Assembly: GCA_023145965.1 (NCBI GenBank)
Contig: JAGLDC010000011.1
Location: forward strand, 1 to 40,987
Reading direction: 5' to 3'
Length of the DNA stretch: 40,987 bases
From: a bacterium
GTDB lineage: Bacteria; UBP14; UBA6098
Shown one piece after another: positions 3,967 to 34,189 of the stretch. The first letter of the stretch is position 1; each line of letters starts with the position of its first letter. The notes below the pieces were generated by a model. It worked only from the letters and a program-made list of their open reading frames with translations, searched no databases and was not told where the DNA came from. The position numbers and the translations under genes are program-made.

Positions 3967-5364
3967 TTATTCCGATTCCAAGTCTTTCAAGTCGTATTTT
4001 TCTATTTTTCGGTATAGAGTGCTAACATCTATTCCGAGCATCTCTGCAGCTTTGGCTTTCTTCCATTCATGAGACATTAGAACCCAAAAAATATAGGCTT
4101 TTTCGACAGTTTCCATTGTGGGAAGATACTCGTCAGGGATTGTAATAAATGGCGATGTGGTTTCATGTGGCGTCGCCTCTTTGGCCGAATCCGGAAGATG
4201 TTTGGGTTGTATCTCGCTTTTATCGGCCATGAGGATTGCGCGTTCGAGGGCGTTCTCCAGTTCACGGACATTGCCCTTCCATGGGGCTCTTTCGATTAGT
4301 TCGGCCGATTTTTCTGAAAAGGTCTTTGGGAGTTCTTCGGTGCGAATAGCAATTTTTTTCAATATTTGATTGGCGATGGGGAGTATGTCCTCGCGCCTCT
4401 CCCGTAGCGGAGGAATATGCACGTGAAACACGTTAAGTCGGTAATATAGGTCTTCTCTGAAAGAGCCGTCGGCGACCATAGTCTTGATATTAGAGTTTGT
4501 TGCGGCTATAAGGCGGACATCGATTACAGTAGGCGATGTTGCCCCGACAGCAGTTATCTCGCGCTCTTCTAATGCGCGAAGTAGTTTAACCTGAATAGCT
4601 GGTGATGTAGTTCCCACTTCATCGAGAAGGAAAGTGCCGTTGTTGGCGGCCTCGATAAGGCCCATTTTGTCCTTGATTGCGCCGGTGAACGAACCTTTCC
4701 GATGGCCGAAAAGCTCACTCTCCAGAAGTTGCTCGGGAATTGCGCCGCAGTTAATTGCTTTGAAAGGACCGTTCTTTCTGGATGAAAGTGAGTGGATAGC
4801 CTTTGCTATTACCTCTTTACCGGTGCCTGATTCTCCGGTGATCAAAACAGAACTGTCCGTTGGGGCTATTTTTTTCACCAGTTCTTTTAACTCACAACCA
4901 GCCTTTGACACTGCGATGAAATCATCGATAGCACCGCCGGAAGCGCGGAGTTTCTGTTTCAATAAACGGTTTTCGTCACGAAGTTTCTTATTCTCGAATG
5001 CGCGCGAAATGGCGTATTTTATCTGGCTAACCTCGAATGGTTTAGTAATATAATCGAAAGCACCTTCTCTTAAGGCCTCCACAGCCGTTTGAAGGCTGGC
5101 ATAAGCCGTAATCATGATAACCGGGATATTCGAGTTCATCGAGTGGGCTTTTTTAAGAAGCTCGAGACCGGAGCCTCCAGGCATCTTGATATCAGAAATG
5201 ATAAGATCGTATTTGGATTCAGCAAGTAGGTTGATCGCGCCGCGAAAACTACCCACAGTTTGAATTTCGTAACCCTCGCGCGTGAGCATAATATCGAGGA
5301 ATTCCTGCATTGATTCCTCGTCATCGACGATAAGAATTCTACCTAATCGTTCTTTAATAGCCAT
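3967..5364 (-). CDS. Sigma-54-dependent response regulator, NtrC family
   Basis: A 465-residue regulator with all three expected parts. The receiver (about 8-122) has the acidic pair VDDE, the phosphoacceptor Asp58 in DLIISDIKMPGG, and KPFE at the end. The AAA+ domain (about 145-380) has Walker A GESGTGKE and the sigma-54 contact loop as GSFTGA in place of the usual GAFTGA, a common variant. The C-terminal Fis-type helix-turn-helix (about 420-460) contains AKAAEMLGIDVSTLYRKI. The start ATG has GGAG at a good distance and overlaps the end of the PH-like gene by 22 bases. No histidine kinase lies in this cluster. It should activate sigma-54 promoters after phosphorylation; the targets are unknown. 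Confidence 0.95.
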   Translation of the reverse strand: MAIKERLGRILIVDDEESMQEFLDIMLTREGYEIQTVGSFRGAINLLAESKYDLIISDIKMPGGSGLELLKKAHSMNSNIPVIMITAYASLQTAVEALREGAFDYITKPFEVSQIKYAISRAFENKKLRDENRLLKQKLRASGGAIDDFIAVSKAGCELKELVKKIAPTDSSVLITGESGTGKEVIAKAIHSLSSRKNGPFKAINCGAIPEQLLESELFGHRKGSFTGAIKDKMGLIEAANNGTFLLDEVGTTSPAIQVKLLRALEEREITAVGATSPTVIDVRLIAATNSNIKTMVADGSFREDLYYRLNVFHVHIPPLRERREDILPIANQILKKIAIRTEELPKTFSEKSAELIERAPWKGNVRELENALERAILMADKSEIQPKHLPDSAKEATPHETTSPFITIPDEYLPTMETVEKAYIFWVLMSHEWKKAKAAEMLGIDVSTLYRKIEKYDLKDLESE

Positions 5365-16251: not shown

Positions 16252-16596
16252 CTATATATTAGCGTGAATTATAGCCAATTTTTTGCCTAATTCTGGCGCA
16301 AAAGAGATAAATTGTTTCATAGTATCGCACATGTAATCGGGGCAATGGGCGCAGGTCGGAACGCCTTTATTTATCGCGCAAATACGCAGCGAGCATTCGT
16401 TTGCATGGGCTGTGCTTAGCCTTCCGCCTTCCATGCAACCATCGCAGATACAATTTTCGGGACAAATATCACCGCTGTATGCCTGATTCCATTTTTCGGC
16501 AATCTTGGCGAATTCCCCGGTGTTATTATTTTTTGTAGCGATGTATGCTTCACATTCGTTGCAATTTAGCCCACAAGCGGCGATTTTTGCTGCCAT
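16252..16596 (-). CDS. DUF3795 cysteine-rich protein
   Basis: A 114-residue protein with twelve or so cysteines. The opening KIAACGLNCNECEAYIATK, then CPENCICDGC and later CAINKGVPTCAHCPDYMC, are characteristic of DUF3795, a family thought to bind metal or an Fe-S cluster; no function is established. The start could be the ATG at 16599 or at 16596; GAGGAGG is better spaced for the latter. It overlaps the stop of thiE, so it is the third gene of the riboswitch-controlled operon. The co-transcription hints at a link with thiamine metabolism, but this is inference only. Confidence 0.85.
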   Translation of the reverse strand: MAAKIAACGLNCNECEAYIATKNNNTGEFAKIAEKWNQAYSGDICPENCICDGCMEGGRLSTAHANECSLRICAINKGVPTCAHCPDYMCDTMKQFISFAPELGKKLAIIHANI

Positions 16597-17231
16597 CATT
16601 CCTCCTCGTGTATAACTTCGATTAATTTCTTAGCGGCCATGAGCGGATCGTCTGCTTTCATTATAGCGGAAACAACCGCCGCGCCATCGCAACCTGCCTG
16701 AATGACCTGTTTTGCATTATTATATTTAATATTCCCAATTCCTACAATTGGAATTTTTACCACAGCCCTGATTTTACGGACACCTTCCAAACCGACCTGG
16801 GGTGGAGTATCCAGTTTTGTAGGAGTAGCCCATATTGGACTTACAGCTATGTAATCAGCACCATGCTTTTCCGCGAGAATGGCCTCATCCACCGAACTGA
16901 CGGATACTCCGATAATATAATCACTCTTCAGAATTTTGCGTGCTTGAATTAGCGACATATCTTGTTGACCGATATGCACTCCACGGGCACCGATTTCGAG
17001 AGCTACGTCGATGTTGTCGTTTATTATCAAAGGCACTCGGTGTTGTTCGAGTTTTTTCTTTAGTCTTTTTGCAATAGCTACAAAATGGGAATTATCCAGG
17101 TTTTTTTCCCTTAACTGAACTATCGTTACTCCGCCAAGAACGGCCTGAGTGACAATGTCTATAAGCTCTTGGTCTCCACACATTGCACTATCTGTGACAA
17201 GATATAGGGTGTATTTAATATCAGTTTTCAA
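16596..17231 (-). CDS. thiE: Thiamine-phosphate synthase
   Basis: A 211-residue TIM-barrel enzyme that joins HMP-pyrophosphate to thiazole phosphate. Motifs LYLVTD, VQLREKN, PLIINDNIDVALEIGARGVHIGQQD and VSPIWATPTK...VGLEG are all present, with the phosphate-binding IPIVGIGNI and GAAVVSAI near the end. The start is a TTG directly behind the thiM stop (TAA-A-TTG), with a poor ribosome site, so translation is probably coupled to thiM. No in-frame ATG would keep the first strand. The family is usually 200-220 residues, as here. Confidence 0.96.
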   Translation of the reverse strand: MKTDIKYTLYLVTDSAMCGDQELIDIVTQAVLGGVTIVQLREKNLDNSHFVAIAKRLKKKLEQHRVPLIINDNIDVALEIGARGVHIGQQDMSLIQARKILKSDYIIGVSVSSVDEAILAEKHGADYIAVSPIWATPTKLDTPPQVGLEGVRKIRAVVKIPIVGIGNIKYNNAKQVIQAGCDGAAVVSAIMKADDPLMAAKKLIEVIHEEE

Positions 17232-17232
17232 T

Positions 17233-18036
17233 TTATATCTCGTCGATCTTCAATTTATTTAGGTTTTTGTTCTCGATATAACTCAATGCATCTATGAATT
17301 TAGCAAGGAAGCTTCCCGGATACGGAGTTTCCTGAAAAGCTAGGTCTCCGGCAATAGCATAATAACCGAAGGCCGATACTGCTGCAGTGAGAGGGTCTTC
17401 ATTTGCTCCAATAAAAGCTCCTACGGTGGCGGTGAGTCCGCAGCCTATGCCAGTTACCCTTGTCATTATTGGATTTCCGTTTGAAACCCGGACAATTCGA
17501 GTGCCGTCTGTTATTAAATCGCGCTTTCCGGAGATGCCGATTATGCAGTTGTAGCGCTGGGATATATCGAGTGCAAAATCGACCATTTTATCTACATCGT
17601 GGATGGAATCCACTCCACGGGCACCATCCGAGCCTGCAATTGAATTTATTTCCGAGGCGTTGCCACGAATAACTGCCAGTTTTACTTCTCGGAGTATCTC
17701 CATTGATTTTTCCGTTCTAAGACGCGTAGCTCCAGCACCGACAGGATCAAAAATCACCGGAACACCGAGCTTATTGGCTTTTTTGCCCGCAAGAATCATA
17801 GCCTCGACCAATTCGTTACTGAGTGTACCAATATTGAGAACCAAGCTATTTGCTATCGAGACCATGTCTTCGACCTCGTTTATCGCATGTGCCATAACCG
17901 GTTGTGCGCCAATGGCTAGGAGTATATTAGCGGAAGAATTCATTACAACAAAATTTGTAATATTATGAACGAGGGGCTTTTTTTGGCGAACGGCCTCCAA
18001 ATTTGCTTCAACATGCTTTATCCAGTTTATTTTCAT
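17233..18036 (-). CDS. thiM: Hydroxyethylthiazole kinase
   Basis: A 267-residue ribokinase-fold enzyme that phosphorylates 4-methyl-5-(2-hydroxyethyl)thiazole for salvage. Family segments KPLVHNITNFVVMNSSAN, PVIFDPVGAGATRLRTE and RGNASEI are present, along with the catalytic VTGIGCGLTATVGAF carrying the conserved cysteine. GGAGG precedes the ATG and lies immediately after the T run of the riboswitch terminator, so premature termination removes the whole coding region. thiE follows after 1 base. No thiD lies beside them, so the pyrimidine kinase must be elsewhere or missing. Confidence 0.97.
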   Translation of the reverse strand: MKINWIKHVEANLEAVRQKKPLVHNITNFVVMNSSANILLAIGAQPVMAHAINEVEDMVSIANSLVLNIGTLSNELVEAMILAGKKANKLGVPVIFDPVGAGATRLRTEKSMEILREVKLAVIRGNASEINSIAGSDGARGVDSIHDVDKMVDFALDISQRYNCIIGISGKRDLITDGTRIVRVSNGNPIMTRVTGIGCGLTATVGAFIGANEDPLTAAVSAFGYYAIAGDLAFQETPYPGSFLAKFIDALSYIENKNLNKLKIDEI

Positions 18037-18050
18037 AATCGACCTCCAAT

Positions 18051-18075
18051 AAAAAAAAGTTCCTAACGGAACCTG
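18051..18075 (-). terminator. Riboswitch expression platform: intrinsic terminator
   Basis: Behind the aptamer, AGGTTCC and GGAACTT pair around GTTA, followed by eight T residues (18058-18051) and then the thiM ribosome site. The left arm with its preceding C (CAGGTTCC, 18075-18068) is exactly complementary to GGAACCTG in the conserved aptamer core (18111-18104). Without TPP these can pair as an antiterminator; with TPP bound, the core is locked and the terminator forms. The complementarity is seen; the switching is inferred from known TPP riboswitches. Confidence 0.88.
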
Positions 18076-18080
18076 CTACT

Positions 18081-18150
18081 TCCTACGCCGGTATTACCCG
18101 GATCAGGTTCCACGGGTATAATCTCAGGTTTTAATACCACCCCGGTAAGA
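18081..18150 (-). ncRNA. TPP riboswitch aptamer (THI element)
   Basis: On the minus strand the segment contains CGGGGTGG, then CTGAGATTATACCCGT, then GAACCTGATCCGGGTAATAC and CGGCGTAGGAA, the conserved parts of the THI element. P1 can form between TCTTAC (18150-18145) and GTAGGA (18086-18081). It lies directly before thiM and thiE, as expected for TPP feedback control. Confidence 0.96.
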
Positions 18151-18152
18151 TA

Positions 18153-18180
18153 ATTATAGCCTCATATCACAGATTATCAA
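18153..18180 (-). promoter_or_regulatory. Sigma-70 promoter of the thiM-thiE operon
   Basis: TTGATA (18180-18175), 16 bases, then a consensus TATAAT (18158-18153) on the minus strand. The expected RNA start falls at about 18146-18150, at the very beginning of the aptamer, which supports the assignment. Confidence 0.8.
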
Positions 18181-18258: not shown

Positions 18259-20850
18259 CTAATCGTAATTATATCCAAATGAGAAGTTAATCTGTTGGAG
18301 CTTTTCTGTATTGGTTCCCCATGAAAGCTGTAAAGGGCCAAGTGGAGTCGCTATTCCCCAACCAGCACCCCAACCCCAAATAGTTTCTTTTAATTCTAAT
18401 TTATCATCTTTTTGCCATGTTCGGCCAGAGGTCACTCCTGAAAAAATATAAACTGGGTCCATCGGGTTAACTCTAAAATTGAATCCCATTTTGAAAAACG
18501 AGTTACCTCTTCGTTCATCGCCACGTAAGCCCCAAAAAGCTACGTCTTGTCCCAGTTCAAACTGCTCGAAAAATGGAGGTCCTCCCGACATATAGCCGCC
18601 CATGACATAGGGGTGAAATGTAAGCGCTTCCGTCCATGTCCAATAGCTCTGAAAACTGGCGTATGATTTAGAAAAGGAGTATTCACCGCCGAGGATGTCC
18701 TTGCTGATCATGAAATAACTCTCGTGGTATTTGCCATGTCTGGGGAATTGCCTGTCGTCGAAGGTGTCCACAATTGAGCGAATAGCAAATCTATTAAGTG
18801 GATACTCTTTATGGTTGCTTTTTTCCGGTCCAAATACTACATATTCAGATCCAATCTCCAAAAAAAGCGTCCCAAATCTTTTAATTTGCTGTCCCAGAGA
18901 TAGTTTAATGCCATATAAATATATATCGTAGGTCTCAGAAATCGTATCGGCTTGCCATAAATCGTATTTCGTTCCTTTGGCAAAAACAGTTGTGTTTCCT
19001 GCTATAAATGAACGCCATATTCTATCAGTTTCAATTTTAGAATAGATGTTCCAACGACGCGAACCACCATTAATACCAAAATTCAGTCTCCATGCAATTC
19101 CAAAAAGATTATCATCTCCTATTTCGACGGCTCCCTCAACTCCATTTAAAATATCATACCGCGCACCTAATCTTATCCCTAAGAAGGGTTTTTCAGCTAA
19201 CTCTAATAAAACAACAACGCCGCTATCGCCCCTTTCTAGTCTAGGAATAATTGACTCGAAAAGATTGGTCGCATGAATATTCGACATCGTGTTTTCAAGT
19301 AATCGATTTTGATATTTTTTGCCTATTTCAAGGTCTGAAAAACTTCTAATCACCCAATCTTTTGTTCGGTTATTCCCTTCAATTCTGATATCTTCGATTA
19401 GACCTTCTTCAAAAATTATGCCGAGGGTTCCAGCATCTACAGCTGCGAAATAAATATGGGAGAGGTCGAATCCCTTCGATTTATAAAAATCCTCTATCGA
19501 GGAAAGAAGAGAATCGATTTCCCGATGATTAGCCGGTTGCGTTGTATCTATTACAAATTTTGAAATAAAAGTATCAACATCGAATGATTCTACTCCGACC
19601 ATTTTTATACCGTGTAATGGCGGATTTAGTTCCACATGAACCTGCAAATTCATAGTGTCATGACTAACTGCGTAATCTATTGCAACATCCTTATAAATAC
19701 CCTGAGAGTATAACTCGTTTAGTTTGTTCTTTAGTGTAGAGATCGATATTTTATTGCCTGAAATTAAACCAATCAAATCACCATTATCAATTGAAGAGAT
19801 TGTATATATTGTGATATTATTATCTTTGTATTCGAGGATTTCTTTTATATCTTCCAATTTAGTTTCAGCAGCCTTTTTACCAATTTCAATTATTGAATCG
19901 ATATTGTCGAAATCATAACTACCTTGTGAACCGAGATCGGGTTCAATAAGTATATCGGCGAGTTTTCTCTCATACTTTTTTTTATCCTCAGCCATGATAT
20001 TGGTGGTTTGGTCTAAAATATAGAGCGCATTATCTAAAGCCCTTGAATAGTTTAAATCTGCCGTTGCGTCTACAGCGATGATTTTTGCGCTACTTAAAAC
20101 TTTGGCAATTTCTACAGGTATGGGATATAATAACCCGCCATCGGCCAGAAGAATCGAATCTATCTCGAGAGGGGAAAGAAATAAAGGTATAGCCGAGCTT
20201 GCGCGCAATGCGACAGCAAGATCTCCTTCTGAAAAAATTAATGGTTTTCCAGAACGAAGATCGGTTGTTACAGCCCTAAAGGGAATTTGTAGCCTGTCAA
20301 AATCGCCATTGGCAGCGAAATTAGGGGCGGCACAATATAGCACAAGTAAACTTGATATTCTATTTGCAGCGCTGATGCCCTCTGGAATATATGGTCTAAA
20401 ATTCAAAAACCTAAGATGAACTAGAAAGCGTTCAGTTGCCATTCTCTGAGTCTGGAAAAGCTTTGTTCGTTTAGGAGAATCGTAGATCAAATCGCCCCAT
20501 TCGATCTGATGAACAATTTGGTTTAGCTGTGATGTGTTATAACCTGCCGAATATAGACCACCGATTATCGCTCCCATACTTACACCAACAATAGCACTCG
20601 GATGCAAATCGTGCTCCTCGAAAACTTCTAAAACACCAATTTGGGATAGCCCTCGAGCGCCTCCACCAGAGAGAACAAGTGTAAAATCATTCTTATCTGC
20701 GGATGGATGTCTCCATATGCGACCATCTTTTGGATCGGAAAAAGAAACCTCGATTTTTCCAACTGATTCTTCAGTCGGGGAATCATCAGCTATTATTATC
20801 GTGCAAGAAAGAAAAAAAACTCCAGCTAGTATGGAATATAATGGCCTCAA
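18259..20850 (-). CDS. Patatin-like phospholipase with POTRA and outer-membrane barrel (type Vd-like)
   Basis: An 863-residue protein. After a signal peptide comes a patatin domain (about 54-320): oxyanion loop SGGGARG (61-67), nucleophile Ser91 in GVSMG, and catalytic Asp237 in ADGG, so the lipase dyad is intact. Residues ~340-550 look like POTRA modules (ISTLKNKLNELYSQGIYKDVAI, SLLSSIEDFYKSKGFDLSHI), and the last ~310 residues form an Omp85-type barrel ending in FSFGYNYD. This is the PlpD/type Vd arrangement, in which the patatin domain is exported or displayed. The start is a TTG with AGGA six bases before it. It lies 8 bases behind the HEAT gene and is the last gene of a four-gene unit. 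The substrate is unknown. Confidence 0.93.
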   Translation of the reverse strand: MRPLYSILAGVFFLSCTIIIADDSPTEESVGKIEVSFSDPKDGRIWRHPSADKNDFTLVLSGGGARGLSQIGVLEVFEEHDLHPSAIVGVSMGAIIGGLYSAGYNTSQLNQIVHQIEWGDLIYDSPKRTKLFQTQRMATERFLVHLRFLNFRPYIPEGISAANRISSLLVLYCAAPNFAANGDFDRLQIPFRAVTTDLRSGKPLIFSEGDLAVALRASSAIPLFLSPLEIDSILLADGGLLYPIPVEIAKVLSSAKIIAVDATADLNYSRALDNALYILDQTTNIMAEDKKKYERKLADILIEPDLGSQGSYDFDNIDSIIEIGKKAAETKLEDIKEILEYKDNNITIYTISSIDNGDLIGLISGNKISISTLKNKLNELYSQGIYKDVAIDYAVSHDTMNLQVHVELNPPLHGIKMVGVESFDVDTFISKFVIDTTQPANHREIDSLLSSIEDFYKSKGFDLSHIYFAAVDAGTLGIIFEEGLIEDIRIEGNNRTKDWVIRSFSDLEIGKKYQNRLLENTMSNIHATNLFESIIPRLERGDSGVVVLLELAEKPFLGIRLGARYDILNGVEGAVEIGDDNLFGIAWRLNFGINGGSRRWNIYSKIETDRIWRSFIAGNTTVFAKGTKYDLWQADTISETYDIYLYGIKLSLGQQIKRFGTLFLEIGSEYVVFGPEKSNHKEYPLNRFAIRSIVDTFDDRQFPRHGKYHESYFMISKDILGGEYSFSKSYASFQSYWTWTEALTFHPYVMGGYMSGGPPFFEQFELGQDVAFWGLRGDERRGNSFFKMGFNFRVNPMDPVYIFSGVTSGRTWQKDDKLELKETIWGWGAGWGIATPLGPLQLSWGTNTEKLQQINFSFGYNYD

Positions 20851-28193: not shown

Positions 28194-28270
28194 CGGGGCG
28201 TAGCGCAGTCTGGTAGCGCACTTGGCTGGGGGCCAAGGTGCCGCTGGTTCAAATCCAGTCGCCCCGACCA
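28194..28270 (+). tRNA. tRNA-Pro (anticodon GGG)
   Basis: A 77-base gene that folds as a full cloverleaf. The acceptor arm CGGGGCG pairs with CGCCCCG and begins with C1-G72, typical of bacterial tRNA-Pro. The anticodon arm is CTTGG-CTGGGGG-CCAAG, so the anticodon is GGG. The T arm is GCTGG-TTCAAAT-CCAGT. The 3' ACCA is encoded. Confidence 0.97.
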
Positions 28271-28335: not shown

Positions 28336-29016
28336 GTGAAAGTTCTCGCAATAACCCCGGCTTTCAATGCAGAGAAGACGATAGATAGCCTTATTGAAGT
28401 TCTTTTACAGACTTTCGATACCGAGGACATTCTTCTCATTGACGATGGAAGCACAGATCATACTCTAGAAATAGCGAAGCGGAACAGAATTCAAGTAATA
28501 AGATTTGAGCGCAATATGGGAAAAGGCGCGGCTCTTAAAACCGGCTTTAAATTGGCTATTGAAAAAGGCTATGATGCAGCTCTGACTATAGATTCCGATT
28601 TACAACATCCACCGGAGTTATGCGCTAATTTCATTGATAAGATGAAGAAATCTTCTGCGGATCTTGTCCTTGGCGACCGAATGACCGATGTAAGAGGTAT
28701 GCCCTTTATTAGGAAATTTTCAAACAGTGCAACGAGTTTTTTTGTCCGTTTATGGACAGGCGAAAAGATGCGCGATTCGCAGTGTGGTTTCAGACTGATA
28801 AGCACATCCATTTTGCGCAATGTTCATCTTAGGATAGACCGCTATCAAACCGAAACCGAATTATTACTTGAAGCATCGAGTCTTGGTGCAAAATTCTCTT
28901 ATGTTACTATACCGACAATTTATAATGAGCAACCAAGTAACATCAATGGATTTTCTGAAACCCTAAGCTTTATTGGTCTTATGTTGTCATATCCCTTCAG
29001 GAGAATTCCCAAATGA
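28336..29016 (+). CDS. Family 2 glycosyltransferase, dolichyl-phosphate-mannose-synthase type
   Basis: A 226-residue GT-A enzyme. It has an N-terminal nucleotide-binding part (VLAITPAFNAEKTIDSLI), LIDDGSTDHTLEIA, GKGAALKTGFKLA and the metal-binding DSDLQHPPE, followed by QCGFRLIS and TETELLLEASSLG, the usual order in DPM1-like transferases that load a sugar on a polyprenyl phosphate. No C-terminal membrane helices are seen. The start is a GTG with weak ribosome site; the overlap with the next gene (ATGA) suggests coupling. Donor and acceptor are not known. Confidence 0.92.
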   Translation: MKVLAITPAFNAEKTIDSLIEVLLQTFDTEDILLIDDGSTDHTLEIAKRNRIQVIRFERNMGKGAALKTGFKLAIEKGYDAALTIDSDLQHPPELCANFIDKMKKSSADLVLGDRMTDVRGMPFIRKFSNSATSFFVRLWTGEKMRDSQCGFRLISTSILRNVHLRIDRYQTETELLLEASSLGAKFSYVTIPTIYNEQPSNINGFSETLSFIGLMLSYPFRRIPK

Positions 29017-29699
29017 AATCTATGGCAGGGAAAAGGGCCAAAATAGCATTATTTGTGCTGATAATATTATTCGTGAGCTCGCTGGTCGCTTCTGAAACGG
29101 TTCCCAGAGATGAGGAAGCTTTGTCCCACGGAGATAAGATTGCTTCGTGGCTGCACAAAAAAGGCATACCCTCCGATCTTGTAGTTCTCATTATAGCGAT
29201 GCTGCCGATAGTCGAGCTCAGGGGAGCCATTCCTGTGGCAATGCACCTCTTCGGAATGTCTATACCCCATAGCTATATTTTATGTGTATTAGGCAACATG
29301 ATACCAATTCCCTTTATCCTTCTTTTGTTGGGTCCTGTATCAAGGTTTTTAAGGCGTATGAAGATATTCGATAAGTTTTTCATATGGCTGTTCAACAGGA
29401 CGCGTAAACGCTCTAACAAAATAAAGAAGTATGAAGAATTGGGTCTTATTGCTTTTGTAGCTATACCTCTTCCTATAACGGGTGCATGGACAGGAAGCCT
29501 TGCTGCTTTTCTTTTCGGATTAAGGTTTTGGCCCTCTTTTTTCTGTGCTCTTGCTGGTGTATGTATTGCTGGTGTTGTTGTTACTGCCTTTTCAGCTTTG
29601 GGATGGGTTGGAGCCATATCCGCAGGCGTAATCCTGATAATTATCGCTGCAACGAGTATATTCTCTAAAAAACAACAGAATAATTCTCAAGTGCAATAA
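29013..29699 (+). CDS. COG2426 small multidrug-export-like membrane protein
   Basis: A 228-residue protein with a hydrophobic N-terminal segment (a signal or membrane helix, ending around SLVASETV) and several membrane helices. The conserved family motifs MLPIVELRGAIPVAM, LGNMIPIPFILL and AIPLPITGAWTGSLAAFLFG are present. The family is annotated as a putative small multidrug exporter, but its transport function is not established. Its ATG overlaps the glycosyltransferase stop by 4 bases. It ends in a charged, glutamine-rich tail. Confidence 0.88.
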   Translation: MKSMAGKRAKIALFVLIILFVSSLVASETVPRDEEALSHGDKIASWLHKKGIPSDLVVLIIAMLPIVELRGAIPVAMHLFGMSIPHSYILCVLGNMIPIPFILLLLGPVSRFLRRMKIFDKFFIWLFNRTRKRSNKIKKYEELGLIAFVAIPLPITGAWTGSLAAFLFGLRFWPSFFCALAGVCIAGVVVTAFSALGWVGAISAGVILIIIAATSIFSKKQQNNSQVQ

Positions 29700-29787: not shown

Positions 29788-30810
29788 TTGAACAAGAATT
29801 TGTTAATTGTTTTTGTTTGTATTATCTTTGTAGCTATACTGTTACTTTCATCCAAACTCGCTGATGATAAATACCATTTGCGCGATCCAAGAATAAAGCC
29901 ATCCAGCAAACTAGAGCTTTCACAAAAAAAAACTGTATTATCGTTTATGCCAAACTGGTATTCAGGGGCCCAGTTTTCGGGATATTATTATGCTGAGCAC
30001 TACAAGATATATGAAAGTTTTAACCTTGATGTTAATATTTTAAGATTCGATAACGATTATGATGTTCTTGGGCATCTTATAGCCGGAGAGCTAGATGTAG
30101 CAGTTATGAGCATGAATTATTTTACTGATGCATGTAAACAAACAGATCAAATTGTGGTCTTAGCCGCTATATTTCAATATGAACCCTCTGTATTTATAGT
30201 TAAGGAAAACAGTGGGATTGAATGTCCAACTGATTTTAAAGAGAAGAAAATAATTTGCAAAAATAAAGACTGGAAGAGAATGATTTATCGGATTATCTCG
30301 ACAGCCGGCCTCGATTCCAGTCAAGTCGAGTTGGTATATGGCCAGAATGATTTGGCTGCCTTCACATCGGGCGATATAGATATATGGGCAGGTTATGCTC
30401 ATAACGAACCTGTTGAATTCGACATGGCAGGTATAGAGACTTCGAATATATATGCTTATGACTATGGAGTTATTAATTACGAAGGTTTGTTAGTAACTAC
30501 CAGAGATTTACTCGAGCATAATAGCGATGCAGTAGAATCATTTCTTTCTGCTTCCATGATTGGTTGGGATAACTCTATAAAAAATCCTGAATTAACCCTG
30601 AAAGCGATTCAATGCTTCGATTCTTCTATTTCAATTTCGTTTCAGAGACAATCTTTGGCTAAAATCGTGCCTTTTATTCACACTGGGGAAAAACCTCTAG
30701 GCTGTGTAGATATCTCGCGATGGAACAGCTTAATGGGTGAGAATGGTTTGGAAGACGAATCGTATCTTGCTATCGATTTGATTAATAAAATTCACTCCAA
30801 GCAATATTGA
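29788..30810 (+). CDS. NMT1/THI5-like periplasmic solute-binding protein, membrane-anchored
   Basis: A 340-residue protein with an N-terminal hydrophobic helix (LLIVFVCIIFVAILLL) that has no obvious cleavage site, so it may remain as an anchor. The rest is a type 2 periplasmic-binding fold: LSFMPNWYSGAQFSGYYYAE, HLIAGELDVAVMSMNYF and LVYGQNDLAAFTSGDIDIWAGYAHNEP match NMT1/SsuA-like binding proteins that take up thiamine-precursor pyrimidines, sulfonates or similar compounds. The start is a TTG with GGGAG ahead. No permease or ATPase gene is near; instead a histidine kinase starts 4 bases behind its stop, so it probably senses a ligand for that kinase. The ligand is unknown. Confidence 0.83.
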   Translation: MNKNLLIVFVCIIFVAILLLSSKLADDKYHLRDPRIKPSSKLELSQKKTVLSFMPNWYSGAQFSGYYYAEHYKIYESFNLDVNILRFDNDYDVLGHLIAGELDVAVMSMNYFTDACKQTDQIVVLAAIFQYEPSVFIVKENSGIECPTDFKEKKIICKNKDWKRMIYRIISTAGLDSSQVELVYGQNDLAAFTSGDIDIWAGYAHNEPVEFDMAGIETSNIYAYDYGVINYEGLLVTTRDLLEHNSDAVESFLSASMIGWDNSIKNPELTLKAIQCFDSSISISFQRQSLAKIVPFIHTGEKPLGCVDISRWNSLMGENGLEDESYLAIDLINKIHSKQY

Positions 30811-30814
30811 TAAT

Positions 30815-33328
30815 ATGTTAGATCGTTTTAAAAAGGACGTTGGAGTTCGCCTCACAGCTATATTTATTATGGGATGCATGATTCCTCTGTTTTTTTTCGG
30901 TGTTTATATCTATTTTAAAACTGTGAAAAATCTTGTTGATATGTCGCGCGACCGGGTAAGCACAAATATTCAGTTAAGAGAGCATTATATCCATTCATGG
31001 ATTGAAGCACAGGAAAATTCTATTGAAGAAATCGCCGAATTATATAAGCACAATGTGAACATTCCTCTATCCAAGAATGACATAATAAGCTTTTTTATTA
31101 AGGACAATAGCGAATTCTTTGAAATTTTCATTTTATCTACAAAAGATGGAAATATTATACAATCCACTGAGCCTTTGAATATTGGTAAAATAAAAAAGGA
31201 GAGAGCCTATTTCCATAATGGAATAAAAGGGACTTACACCTCTAATATTTATTTTAGCCCCTCTCTTCAGGGACCGGCAATGACCATCGCTACTCCCATA
31301 GAAATCAGTGGCGATACTTTGCTTGTTTTAGCGGGAAGAGTTAAACTCGATAAGCTTATTTCGGTTCTTGGACTCGGATTTTCAGATAAAACCTCAATCA
31401 ATTCCTACCTTGTGAATAGGTGGAATGCTTTTACAATAGGTTCAGATAAGGTTGAAGAAAAAACAGGAAATTTTTCTTTTGGTATTCAAAAAGCTATTGA
31501 AGAAGGCCGATTTATTGGCAAGTATAAGGATTGGAATGGGACAACTGTAATCGGATGTTGTAGGTTTATATCTACTTTAGGTGCAGTGCTTGTTGTCGAA
31601 GTTGAATATGATTTGGCAACCAGCCCGCTAAAAAAAGATATTGTAGTTATTTTCGCTATTCTTATAGCTTCAATATTAATAGCATCTTTTTTCTTCTATT
31701 TTCTTTTAAAAAACACTCTTAAGCCAATCGACGAAATTTCTAAGGCCGCTCAAACCGCTGCTCAAGGAAATCTTAATGTTCGTGTTAGAAGCAAGGGCAT
31801 GGACCAGATTGCCCTCTTAGCATCGAGTTTTAATTCTATGGTTTCTAAATTAGCCGATAGTTTGCACGAAAAAGCCCTGTCGGATCAAAAACGAAGTCAC
31901 CTTATCGAACGCGCAAATGATGGGTTTATTACAATCGATAGGTTTGGAAACATACTCGATATTAATCAAAGTGTTTCTAGGATGTGGAATTATACTCAAG
32001 TCGAACTTAAACAGATGCTTGTCTTTGAACTGTTTCAAGAAGACGATGCTAAAACCTTTGGGCGACAGATCCGAAGAATAGAATATAATGATTCTGCTGG
32101 ACTGATAGAATTGAATGCTGTTAAACAAAATGGAGTGTTTTTTCCGACTGAGATGAGTCTTATATCTTTGGGCGATGGAACATATCTTGTTATAGCAAGA
32201 GACATCACTGAAAAGAAAATACTTGAACGCGAGCTTGTACAAGCACAAAAGCTGGAAAGCGTCGGAACCCTTGCAGCAGGTATTGCCCACGATTTCGATA
32301 ATTTACTCGTAGGTGTTTTAGGTGCCGCCTCACTTATAAAATCGACAACTAATAACTCTGACCCGAGATACGAGATGCTCGAAATTATTGAAACTTCCGC
32401 TGAGCGGGCTGCAGGGTTAGTCAAACAATTAATGACATTTGCCAGACAGGAACCACCGCATAGAGAGACTACTAATATCTCGACATTAATCGAAGAGGTC
32501 ATGAGAGTTTTGCGCACAAGTGGAAGTCCTGATATCTTTTTCAGAACCAGAGTAGCTTCTAATCTGCCTATGGTTTTTGTCGATCCAGTCCAGATTAAGC
32601 AGACTTTCTTCAATCTTTGTTTAAATGCTATTGATGCCATGCCCGATGGTGGAGAGCTGACGGTCGAGGTCAATTTTGTTGAAGTAGATTCTTCAAAATT
32701 TAAAACCCTAAAGGATTCCCGAAATAAGAATTTTGTTGAGATTTTAATCTCAGACACAGGTATTGGAATCTCCGAGGATAAAATTGATAGGATTTTCGAA
32801 CCGTTTTTTAGCACTAAAGGCCCCGGCAAGGGAACTGGATTGGGGCTTTCAATTTCATATGGTATTGTGGAATTCCACGGTGGGGCGATAAATGTCGATT
32901 CAGTTGAAGGTATTGGTTCTACTTTTAGGGTTTATCTTCCAGCTTTATCTCATGATGTCAATTGTCCAATAGAGCAAAAACCATCCATTTTCTTTATCGA
33001 TAAAAATCCTTCCTTAAGGAGATTATATCGAGTGGCTCTCGATGGAGGACATTATTCCTTATTAAGCTTCTCCTCGCTAAATATGGCCCTATTGGAAACA
33101 AAGAAATCTCAGTTACACCCGGATATTATATTGCTGGGTTCTTCTGCTCTCGATGATGATCTATCAGCGTCTCTTTATATTTTAAAAACAAGCTTTCCAA
33201 AGGCGGCTAGGATTCTTCTGGGAGAAATCGAAGGTATATCAGAGATAGATTTTGATGAAATGATTCCTGAATACAACGATGTAAAAAAAGTTCTAGAAGC
33301 TCTCGGAAGGATTAGTTCGAATCTATAA
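30815..33328 (+). CDS. Hybrid sensor histidine kinase (Cache, HAMP, PAS, HisKA, HATPase) with degenerate receiver
   Basis: An 837-residue kinase. A membrane helix at ~14-35 is followed by a periplasmic Cache-like sensor (about 40-268), a second helix (about 273-295), HAMP (about 296-350) and a PAS domain (about 365-470). HisKA has His492 in AGIAHDFDNLLVGVLG, an NtrB-like H box with the usual HDFNN as HDFDN. The ATPase has NLCLNAIDAMPDGG, DTGIGI and GKGTGLGLSISYGIV. The C-terminal ~105 residues look like a receiver (IDKNPSLRRLYR, DIILLGSSAL) but the phosphoacceptor Asp is replaced by Gly, and one acidic residue is Lys, so it is probably inactive. The stop overlaps the end of the opposite GH3 gene. 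Confidence 0.92.
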   Translation: MLDRFKKDVGVRLTAIFIMGCMIPLFFFGVYIYFKTVKNLVDMSRDRVSTNIQLREHYIHSWIEAQENSIEEIAELYKHNVNIPLSKNDIISFFIKDNSEFFEIFILSTKDGNIIQSTEPLNIGKIKKERAYFHNGIKGTYTSNIYFSPSLQGPAMTIATPIEISGDTLLVLAGRVKLDKLISVLGLGFSDKTSINSYLVNRWNAFTIGSDKVEEKTGNFSFGIQKAIEEGRFIGKYKDWNGTTVIGCCRFISTLGAVLVVEVEYDLATSPLKKDIVVIFAILIASILIASFFFYFLLKNTLKPIDEISKAAQTAAQGNLNVRVRSKGMDQIALLASSFNSMVSKLADSLHEKALSDQKRSHLIERANDGFITIDRFGNILDINQSVSRMWNYTQVELKQMLVFELFQEDDAKTFGRQIRRIEYNDSAGLIELNAVKQNGVFFPTEMSLISLGDGTYLVIARDITEKKILERELVQAQKLESVGTLAAGIAHDFDNLLVGVLGAASLIKSTTNNSDPRYEMLEIIETSAERAAGLVKQLMTFARQEPPHRETTNISTLIEEVMRVLRTSGSPDIFFRTRVASNLPMVFVDPVQIKQTFFNLCLNAIDAMPDGGELTVEVNFVEVDSSKFKTLKDSRNKNFVEILISDTGIGISEDKIDRIFEPFFSTKGPGKGTGLGLSISYGIVEFHGGAINVDSVEGIGSTFRVYLPALSHDVNCPIEQKPSIFFIDKNPSLRRLYRVALDGGHYSLLSFSSLNMALLETKKSQLHPDIILLGSSALDDDLSASLYILKTSFPKAARILLGEIEGISEIDFDEMIPEYNDVKKVLEALGRISSNL

Positions 33329-34189
33329 CAATTCTGTTTGGCCTTCAAACTCCTTGCATATTAAAACAATATCGTGACCCGAGTCTAGGGTTTTCTTAAC
33401 ACGATCTTCTAGGGATTGATATTCTTGAGCTCCGCCCATAAATAGGTCGTCGCTGATAATTGAACCTGTGAATCCTAAGTCTTCCCTTATTATATTTATT
33501 ATTTTTGAAGAATATGTTGCTATTTTGCCGGATGGATCGAGCTTTTTTGCAACTAGATGTGTTGTCATAATATACGGAATAGCAGCCTCGATAACCGATT
33601 TATACGGTATAAAATGCTTTAACCAAAAGTCTTCATTTTTTCCCGCAAAAGATACACCAAGATGCGGATCAATATCCGCAGAACCTAATCCAGGGAAATG
33701 TTTTGCGCAGGGTTTTATTCCTGCGGAAAAAAGCCCTTCGATAATCGCAACCGCATATTCTGCACAGATATAGGGATTATCGGATAAAGCGCGACCTCCT
33801 AAAATGTGGCCCTCAGAGGCAACATCGACTACCGGAGCGAGGTTGATATCTATCCCTAAATCAGCAAGTGCATTTCCAAGTGTTCTATAGGCTTCACGAA
33901 CCTGAAGAGGTGTCATCGATGAAGGCAGTTCACGCGGGTTGGGTGGATTCGGGAAGCCATGTTCTAATCTTAATCTACTTTTTTCACCGCCCTCTTCATC
34001 GATCATGAACATTGCTTTTGGGCAAATACTTCGGAGGTTTTTTATTGTTTTTTTAAGGCCTTTAGAGCTTATAAAATTGTGTTCAAATATAATAAAACCA
34101 TAAGGTTGAGCCTTTTCGATGAAATCGATAAAATTCTTATCGGGGATTGACCCAGAGAAACCGAAGACGGCTTTATTCATATCGAGCAT
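33323..34189 (-). CDS. Glycoside hydrolase family 3, NagZ-like
   Basis: A 288-residue single-domain GH3 enzyme. It has FMIDEEGG, INLAPVVDV, KHFPGLGSADIDPH (with the D-x-H catalytic dyad of NagZ-type enzymes) and the nucleophile in IISDDLFMGG. Such enzymes remove N-acetylglucosamine from muropeptides during cell-wall recycling. The substrate here is assigned by the short length and the dyad. AAGGAAA precedes the ATG; no signal peptide is seen, so it is probably cytoplasmic. Its stop codon lies against that of the opposite kinase gene, with a 6-base overlap. Confidence 0.88.
   Translation of the reverse strand: MLDMNKAVFGFSGSIPDKNFIDFIEKAQPYGFIIFEHNFISSKGLKKTIKNLRSICPKAMFMIDEEGGEKSRLRLEHGFPNPPNPRELPSSMTPLQVREAYRTLGNALADLGIDINLAPVVDVASEGHILGGRALSDNPYICAEYAVAIIEGLFSAGIKPCAKHFPGLGSADIDPHLGVSFAGKNEDFWLKHFIPYKSVIEAAIPYIMTTHLVAKKLDPSGKIATYSSKIINIIREDLGFTGSIISDDLFMGGAQEYQSLEDRVKKTLDSGHDIVLICKEFEGQTELL

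Follow-up and report, generated by a model that had tools for sequence, protein, structure and literature searches.

The stretch of DNA analysed here, which we call the window, spans positions 1 to 40,987 of contig JAGLDC010000011.1 (assembly GCA_023145965.1) from a bacterium of the UBP14 lineage, and it carries a gene for an NMT1-type solute-binding protein (SBP) followed directly by a gene for a hybrid-type sensor histidine kinase. The SBP gene (29788..30810, forward strand) begins with TTG and encodes 340 amino acids; the kinase gene (30815..33328, forward strand) encodes 837 amino acids and starts after a gap of 4 bases. The coordinates, gene order and gap are exactly those given in the original prediction, which was made from the DNA letters without database searches, and the family assignment made there also stands: the SBP matches the Pfam family NMT1 (PF09084) with an E value of 1.9e-33 and 116.6 bits, above the gathering cut-off of 20.5. 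Our sample of the host phylum comprised 17 genomes, of which five represent the window's family, and in all five the SBP gene has TTG as its first listed start codon.

The N-terminus of the SBP features a predicted membrane helix at residues 3-28 (29794..29871, forward strand). Its best 19-residue window has a mean hydropathy of 2.86, and a motif scan with the familiar lipobox pattern found no lipobox; the same combination of hydrophobicity and missing lipobox recurs in all five family orthologues. A fold model with a mean predicted local distance difference test score (pLDDT) of 83.8 also contains a helix at residues 3-28, followed by a region of low confidence (24-44) and a remainder that adopts a two-lobe fold. 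We therefore agree with the earlier suggestion of a membrane anchor, and its uncleaved state is a prediction. The two-lobe part is a periplasmic-binding fold, superposing on ThiY (3ix1) with a Z score of 28.7 over 285 residues and a root-mean-square deviation of 3.9. The other nearest folds are the thiamin-bound 4nmy (Z 28.6) and the THI5 structures (Z about 26), and the closest solved sequences are again 4nmy (E 1e-28) and 3ix1 (E 2.3e-27). In the model, the fold thus points toward the ThiY branch.

The kinase has the architecture Cache-HAMP-PAS-HisKA-HATPase_c with a C-terminal receiver fold, all on the forward strand. The HAMP (31700..31852; PF00672, E 3e-9), PAS (31916..32212; PF13426, E 2.3e-9), HisKA dimerisation and phosphoacceptor (32264..32452; PF00512, E 6.4e-9) and HATPase_c catalytic domains (32582..32944; PF02518, E 4.5e-24) all exceed their Pfam cut-offs, and the motif residues H492, N604, D647, G649 and G651 are invariant across the five orthologues. 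The kinase had also been predicted to carry its own Cache-like sensor, and our results agree. An extracytoplasmic dCache-type domain (30983..31597), flanked by hydrophobic stretches read from the sequence, matches dCache_1 with an E value of 3.9e-5 and 23.8 bits, below the gathering cut-off of 45, as do the family orthologues. Its assignment as a Cache fold rests on homology. The domain resembles the Cache of a kinase from Thermoleophilia (locus L032; BLAST E 6e-9), and over its first 420 residues, HAMP included, the kinase matches the Thermoleophilia counterparts described below at 8e-17 to 2e-23. Among those counterparts, dCache_1 passes its cut-off in L032 (54.5 bits), G022 (64.7) and G093 (47.5) and falls below it in L031 (34.7). 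The best solved match of a Cache profile is the sensor of KinD (4jgo, E 1.3e-9), with weaker matches to the chemoreceptors PctA, PctB and PctC.

The last domain of the kinase (32984..33325) is a pseudo-receiver. The last 110 residues gave no Pfam match to Response_reg at E 0.1; an orthologue in G016 matches at 4.1e-5, under the cut-off, and none of the five kinases reaches the cut-off of PF00072. A model of the domain (pLDDT 79.1) shows the strand and helix order of a receiver, without a clear fourth helix, and its best Foldseek matches are Spo0F (E 2.9e-5) and KaiA (E 3.1e-5), followed by other receivers. The phosphoacceptor site, at the end of beta-3, is occupied by Gly775 (codon 33137-33139), and this position is Gly in 5/5 orthologues, as is the usual Thr position, while the second acidic residue is also gone in all five. 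The replacement of Asp by Gly had been proposed with the caveat that a corrected alignment might restore an Asp; realignment gives none in any of the five orthologues. The domain thus has neither the Asp, the complete acidic pair nor the Thr/Ser of a functional receiver.

The two genes are paired in all five genomes of the family. Each of the five genomes has a single NMT1 match, which is the SBP orthologue, and its gene is paired with a membrane sensor kinase gene in every case, with gaps of 4, 1, -1, -17 and -20 bases. Two upstream genes on the forward strand, encoding a family 2 glycosyltransferase (28336..29016) and an Sm_multidrug_ex (PF06695) membrane protein (29013..29699), are syntenic as well, and the order glycosyltransferase, Sm_multidrug_ex, SBP, kinase is kept in 5/5 genomes. 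NMT1 matches in genomes G011 and G012 were set aside as phosphonate SBPs; they are distant and adjoin genes for an ATP-binding cassette (ABC) ATPase and permease (PhnC/PhnE-like by eye), as in ordinary transporters.

A transporter for this SBP did not emerge. As had been noted originally, no ABC permease or ATPase is present in the window, at least among the 20 proteins scanned (several other window genes were left unscanned), and none appears near the four orthologous loci among the matches listed (25 of 33 Pfam families, from 28 flanking genes). The window's genome has one NMT1 match and three BPD_transp_1 permeases, two of which exceed the NCBIfam cut-offs for PstA and PstC, while the third is nearest to MalG, below its cut-off. 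None of the three is an NMT1-associated permease, in a genome-wide search that covered this one genome and did not extend to ABC ATPases. The original prediction held that cognate permeases always co-occurring with the pair elsewhere would speak against a sensory role; no such permease was found at the orthologous loci, within the matches listed, or among the three in this genome. The SBP might instead be an orphan that serves import by delivering to a transporter whose genes lie elsewhere, with the Cache domain of the kinase sensing the same compound alone and tuning its uptake or use. Cache domains usually bind ligands directly, other NMT1 loci in Thermoleophilia do adjoin ABC-transporter frames, and a transporter could have been missed in an assembly of 139 contigs that is 96.13% complete, with permeases searched in one of five genomes. 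We nonetheless consider this explanation unlikely, given the PstA, PstC and MalG types of the permeases in the window's genome and the lack of a permease beside the four orthologous pairs among those listed matches.

Related pairs exist in another phylum. A search of genome contigs with the single SBP protein gave no matches; a search with an SBP alignment profile gave eight loci. At two Thermoleophilia loci, L031 and L032, a gene for an NMT1 lipoprotein precedes one for a dCache-HAMP-GAF-HisKA_3 kinase, and the L031 pair comes after a LuxR-type response regulator gene. In a sample of 299 Thermoleophilia genomes, 204 had a match to the SBP profile at E <= 1e-15. The top four (G017, G018, G022 and G093) matched at E <= 5.1e-59, the next at 1.4e-39, and a dCache kinase gene lies nearby in 4/4; G017 and G018 are the genomes of L031 and L032 and were members of the profile, and G022 and G093 are independent of it. 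Three of these partner SBPs (G017, G018 and G093) have a lipobox. In G093 the output is HisKA, and a gene for a lone receiver follows the kinase gene. A Cache profile matched six of the 299 genomes, with the same four first, a rank that is partly by construction as all four were in that profile, followed by G276 (1.7e-41) and G110 (8.7e-11). For the next 26 SBP-profile loci (L049-L074), used as comparators, the 129 flanking frames include 18 BPD_transp_1, 8 ABC_tran and 1 dCache (the last at L072, in G028), a tally that counts frames rather than loci and takes no more than the five longest from each locus. A search for the same two-gene pair in other genomes, as originally suggested, thus finds it within the family and, as pairs with a Cache receptor, in Thermoleophilia.

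The output behind this receptor half varies among pairs of this first type, from HisKA with a pseudo-receiver, to HisKA_3 beside a LuxR-type regulator (L031), to HisKA beside a lone receiver (G093). A second type of pair, found in G009, from another UBP14 family, and in G028, from Thermoleophilia, features an NMT1 SBP gene that overlaps a gene for a dCache-HAMP-SpoIIE phosphatase. Within these clusters (L022:5195-10599 and L077:3025-9346), HATPase_c_2 genes follow, one with a GNAT domain, and the G009 cluster includes a STAS gene; from its gene content, the second-type cluster looks like an SBP-driven partner-switching system. The Cache of G009 has no detectable BLAST likeness to that of the window. 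As this second type drives a SpoIIE phosphatase, the pairing of NMT1 and Cache has either originated or been retained with a different output.

We also found NMT1 domains built into receptors. Among 229 gammaproteobacterial genomes, 25 matches at E <= 1e-35 occurred in 14 genomes, and all lie within frames of 469-2267 amino acids, save one that runs off its contig. We scanned 24 of the 25 proteins and placed them in a tree (no frame was found for L090, which was left out). Beyond NMT1 itself (24 of 24), the scan returned SBP_bac_3 in 14, GGDEF in 9, HATPase_c in 4 and HisKA in 2, counts in which later domains are under-represented because the loci end inside many of the genes. In these proteins the NMT1 domain therefore sits in one chain, often alongside PAS, GGDEF or kinase domains; no Cache family was among those matched in the 24. 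They differ from the pair in that the SBP domain is fused to signalling domains, often together with SBP_bac_3.

The tree, built from 60 NMT1 domains (L072, being the second-type pair L077, was left out of the comparators), places the nine first-type pair SBPs together with the 24 one-chain proteins on the same side of a branch supported at 84/82; a first, quick tree gave the same grouping with support of 82. With this moderate support, the one-chain proteins are the nearest NMT1 domains outside the pairs, and they share two residues with them. Phe63 is present in 8/8 first-type pairs covering the site, 2/2 of the second type and 23/24 one-chain proteins, compared with 5/25 comparators, 19 of which have His. 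Pro208 is found in 8/9 first-type pairs, 0/2 of the second type, 24/24 one-chain proteins and 1/25 comparators. Taxonomy confounds both contrasts, as the comparators come from one class and the one-chain proteins from another.

These observations bear on a further alternative, that the NMT1 protein is a THI5-type enzyme or scavenger whose place before a kinase gene reflects incidental co-transcription. THI5 structures are indeed among its nearest folds, as noted above. However, two bacterial phyla have the pairing, some receptor chains contain NMT1 domains, and the protein has a predicted signal-anchor; its sequence also lacks what we take to be the Cys-rich motif of THI5. We regard this explanation as highly improbable. 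Different outputs behind one and the same receptor half, together with the one-chain proteins, are what would be expected of a sensor rather than an importer. The earlier proposal that the SBP serves sensing rather than uptake is thus well supported by context, namely the conserved pairing, the lack of a cognate permease in this genome and the recurrence in another phylum.

We propose that the pair is probably a co-sensor, in which the SBP, once loaded with ligand, would act on the Cache domain of the kinase encoded beside it. The N-terminal helix would tether the NMT1-fold protein to the outer side of the inner membrane, and an anchor of either kind, helix or lipid, would keep it close to its receptor. 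There, the SBP would close around a small molecule, and the loaded form would dock on the Cache domain, shift the HAMP-PAS region and set the balance of kinase and phosphatase activity. The phosphoryl group would then be handed to a response regulator whose gene lies elsewhere. Being unable to accept a phosphoryl group, the C-terminal pseudo-receiver would most likely gate the kinase domain or serve as a docking site for a partner, in the manner of ShkA and CikA; the allosteric role hinted at originally for this domain is, like the docking of the SBP, an inference. As to the regulator, the nearest NCBIfam kinases include CckA, AtoS and ZraS, all far under their cut-offs. AtoS and ZraS partner with sigma-54 activators, and the window's genome has 21 receiver matches, 18 of them above cut-off; our guess is that the regulator is of the sigma-54 activator type and encoded elsewhere in the genome. 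As a separate observation, the window holds a gene for an NtrC-type sigma-54 response regulator at 3967-5364 on the reverse strand, adjoining a gene for a TPR protein.

A variant of the co-sensor, which overlaps with it, is that the empty SBP holds the kinase in one state from which ligand releases it, while a second ligand binds to the Cache domain, so that the pair would integrate two signals. The profile matches to KinD and, more weakly, to PctA, PctB and PctC, which are chemoreceptors that bind ligands directly, are consistent with such a role for the Cache. The evidence gives this sign of regulation no preference over activation; should the co-sensor be right, we would give this version appreciable weight, although clearly the smaller share.

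Several points weigh against the co-sensor. The contact between SBP and Cache is something we infer, and the Cache domain may bind a ligand of its own. No response regulator gene was found beside the UBP14 pairs, either among the window neighbours scanned or, at the four other loci, among the matches listed (25 of 33 families). In G093, a PorA-like (PF11271) gene lies between the SBP and kinase genes (L075:4027-4884, reverse strand). The Cache type is also not always adjoined by an SBP, as the G276 Cache, part of a PAS-GGDEF-EAL protein, has no NMT1 match within a 16-kb stretch and G110 has none within 10 kb. Finally, support of 84/82 makes the grouping of pair SBPs and gammaproteobacterial proteins only moderate, and the second-type SBPs fall with four of the comparators, where a crude motif scan puts an ABC-like frame near at least three.

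Receptors gated by SBPs are already known, and the pair would be a variation on them with an NMT1-family protein as the SBP partner. The Cache of the window resembles the sensor of KinD from Bacillus subtilis, as noted, and KinD requires an SBP-like lipoprotein, Med. Med belongs to the BMP family, the two genes are not known to be paired, and KinD is not known to have a pseudo-receiver. The arsenite three-component system AioXSR shares with the pair an SBP gene upstream of a membrane kinase gene; AioX is from a different SBP family, and AioS is not known to have a pseudo-receiver. AioX is described as membrane-associated and required for signalling, with its gene upstream of that of the membrane kinase and a cognate regulator gene adjacent (PMC7533571), whereas none was seen beside the UBP14 pairs. 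A survey describes SBPs acting on several receptor types (PMC9602780). An NMT1 protein partnering a kinase was not described in the literature that we searched, with partial coverage (titles and the starts of abstracts); one paper combines NMT1 with a diguanylate cyclase. As for the pseudo-receiver, a 2025 review (PMC12632262) reports that this class accounts for about 6% of the bacterial receivers in a representative set and that the pseudo-receivers of ShkA and CikA restrain autophosphorylation. The window kinase is like these in carrying a receiver fold without catalytic residues and differs in that neither the Asp, the Thr nor the second acidic residue is kept. The pair would add a probably SBP-gated kinase to a class whose mechanisms are described there as poorly known.

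As to the ligand, the pyrimidine binders of the ThiY/THI5/NMT1 group are the SBP's nearest solved sequences and folds, yet the pair differs from them in having a receptor as neighbour, not an ABC permease, and in having Phe63 (codon 29974..29976, forward strand), which follows a conserved Trp, where 3ix1, 4nmy and the THI5 structures 4esx and 4esw have His. In this alignment, the site is not of the ThiY type. The genome also has its own TPP-controlled thiC, thiM and thiE: a thiamine pyrophosphate (TPP) riboswitch at 18063-18154 (reverse strand, 72.5 bits) precedes the gene for a ThiM-type hydroxyethylthiazole kinase (17233-18036, reverse strand) and lies upstream of that for a ThiE-type thiamine monophosphate synthase (16596-17231, reverse strand), and thiC, on contig C103, likewise has a TPP riboswitch ahead of it. 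Because of the change from His to Phe and the TPP-controlled thiC, a simple thiamine cue is disfavoured, and thiamine as the ligand is weakened. The original suggestion of thiamine pyrimidines is weakened accordingly. The SBP also stays below the NCBIfam cut-offs for the sulfonate- and taurine-binding proteins, with 45.3 bits against 163.5 for SsuA and 20.7 against 304.25 for TauA. An Rfam gathering search found no riboswitch ahead of the pair. NMT1/THI5-like genes have been linked to a xanthine riboswitch (PMC7373994), which makes purine-like ligands worth considering.

Taken more broadly, and with slightly less than even confidence, we suggest that a branch of the NMT1 family with Phe63 and Pro208 left transport for signalling. 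It would have become an anchored subunit of a KinD-like Cache receptor in UBP14 and Thermoleophilia, and a built-in sensor of diguanylate cyclases and kinases in Gammaproteobacteria. SBP and receptor would then form a portable input module behind which at least three outputs have been swapped, and all members may sense a related class of heteroaromatic ligands. If so, unrelated bacteria would use kinases, diguanylate cyclases and perhaps partner-switch phosphatases to read an unrecognised chemical cue. Genes of the NMT1/THI5-like kind commonly carry annotations that point to ABC transport or thiamine, and a sensory branch would mean that part of these annotations mislead.

Other features of the window were noted in passing. 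A tRNA gene (28194-28267, forward strand) lies upstream of the glycosyltransferase gene. On the other side of the pair, a gene for a protein with a glycoside hydrolase family 3 N-terminal domain (33323-34189, reverse strand) meets the kinase gene tail-to-tail with an overlap of 6 bases, and the same family was matched in 2 of the 28 flanking genes of the other four family loci. Farther away, a gene at 18259-20850 (reverse strand) encodes a single protein with Patatin, POTRA and Omp85 domains, resembling an autotransporter-like phospholipase.

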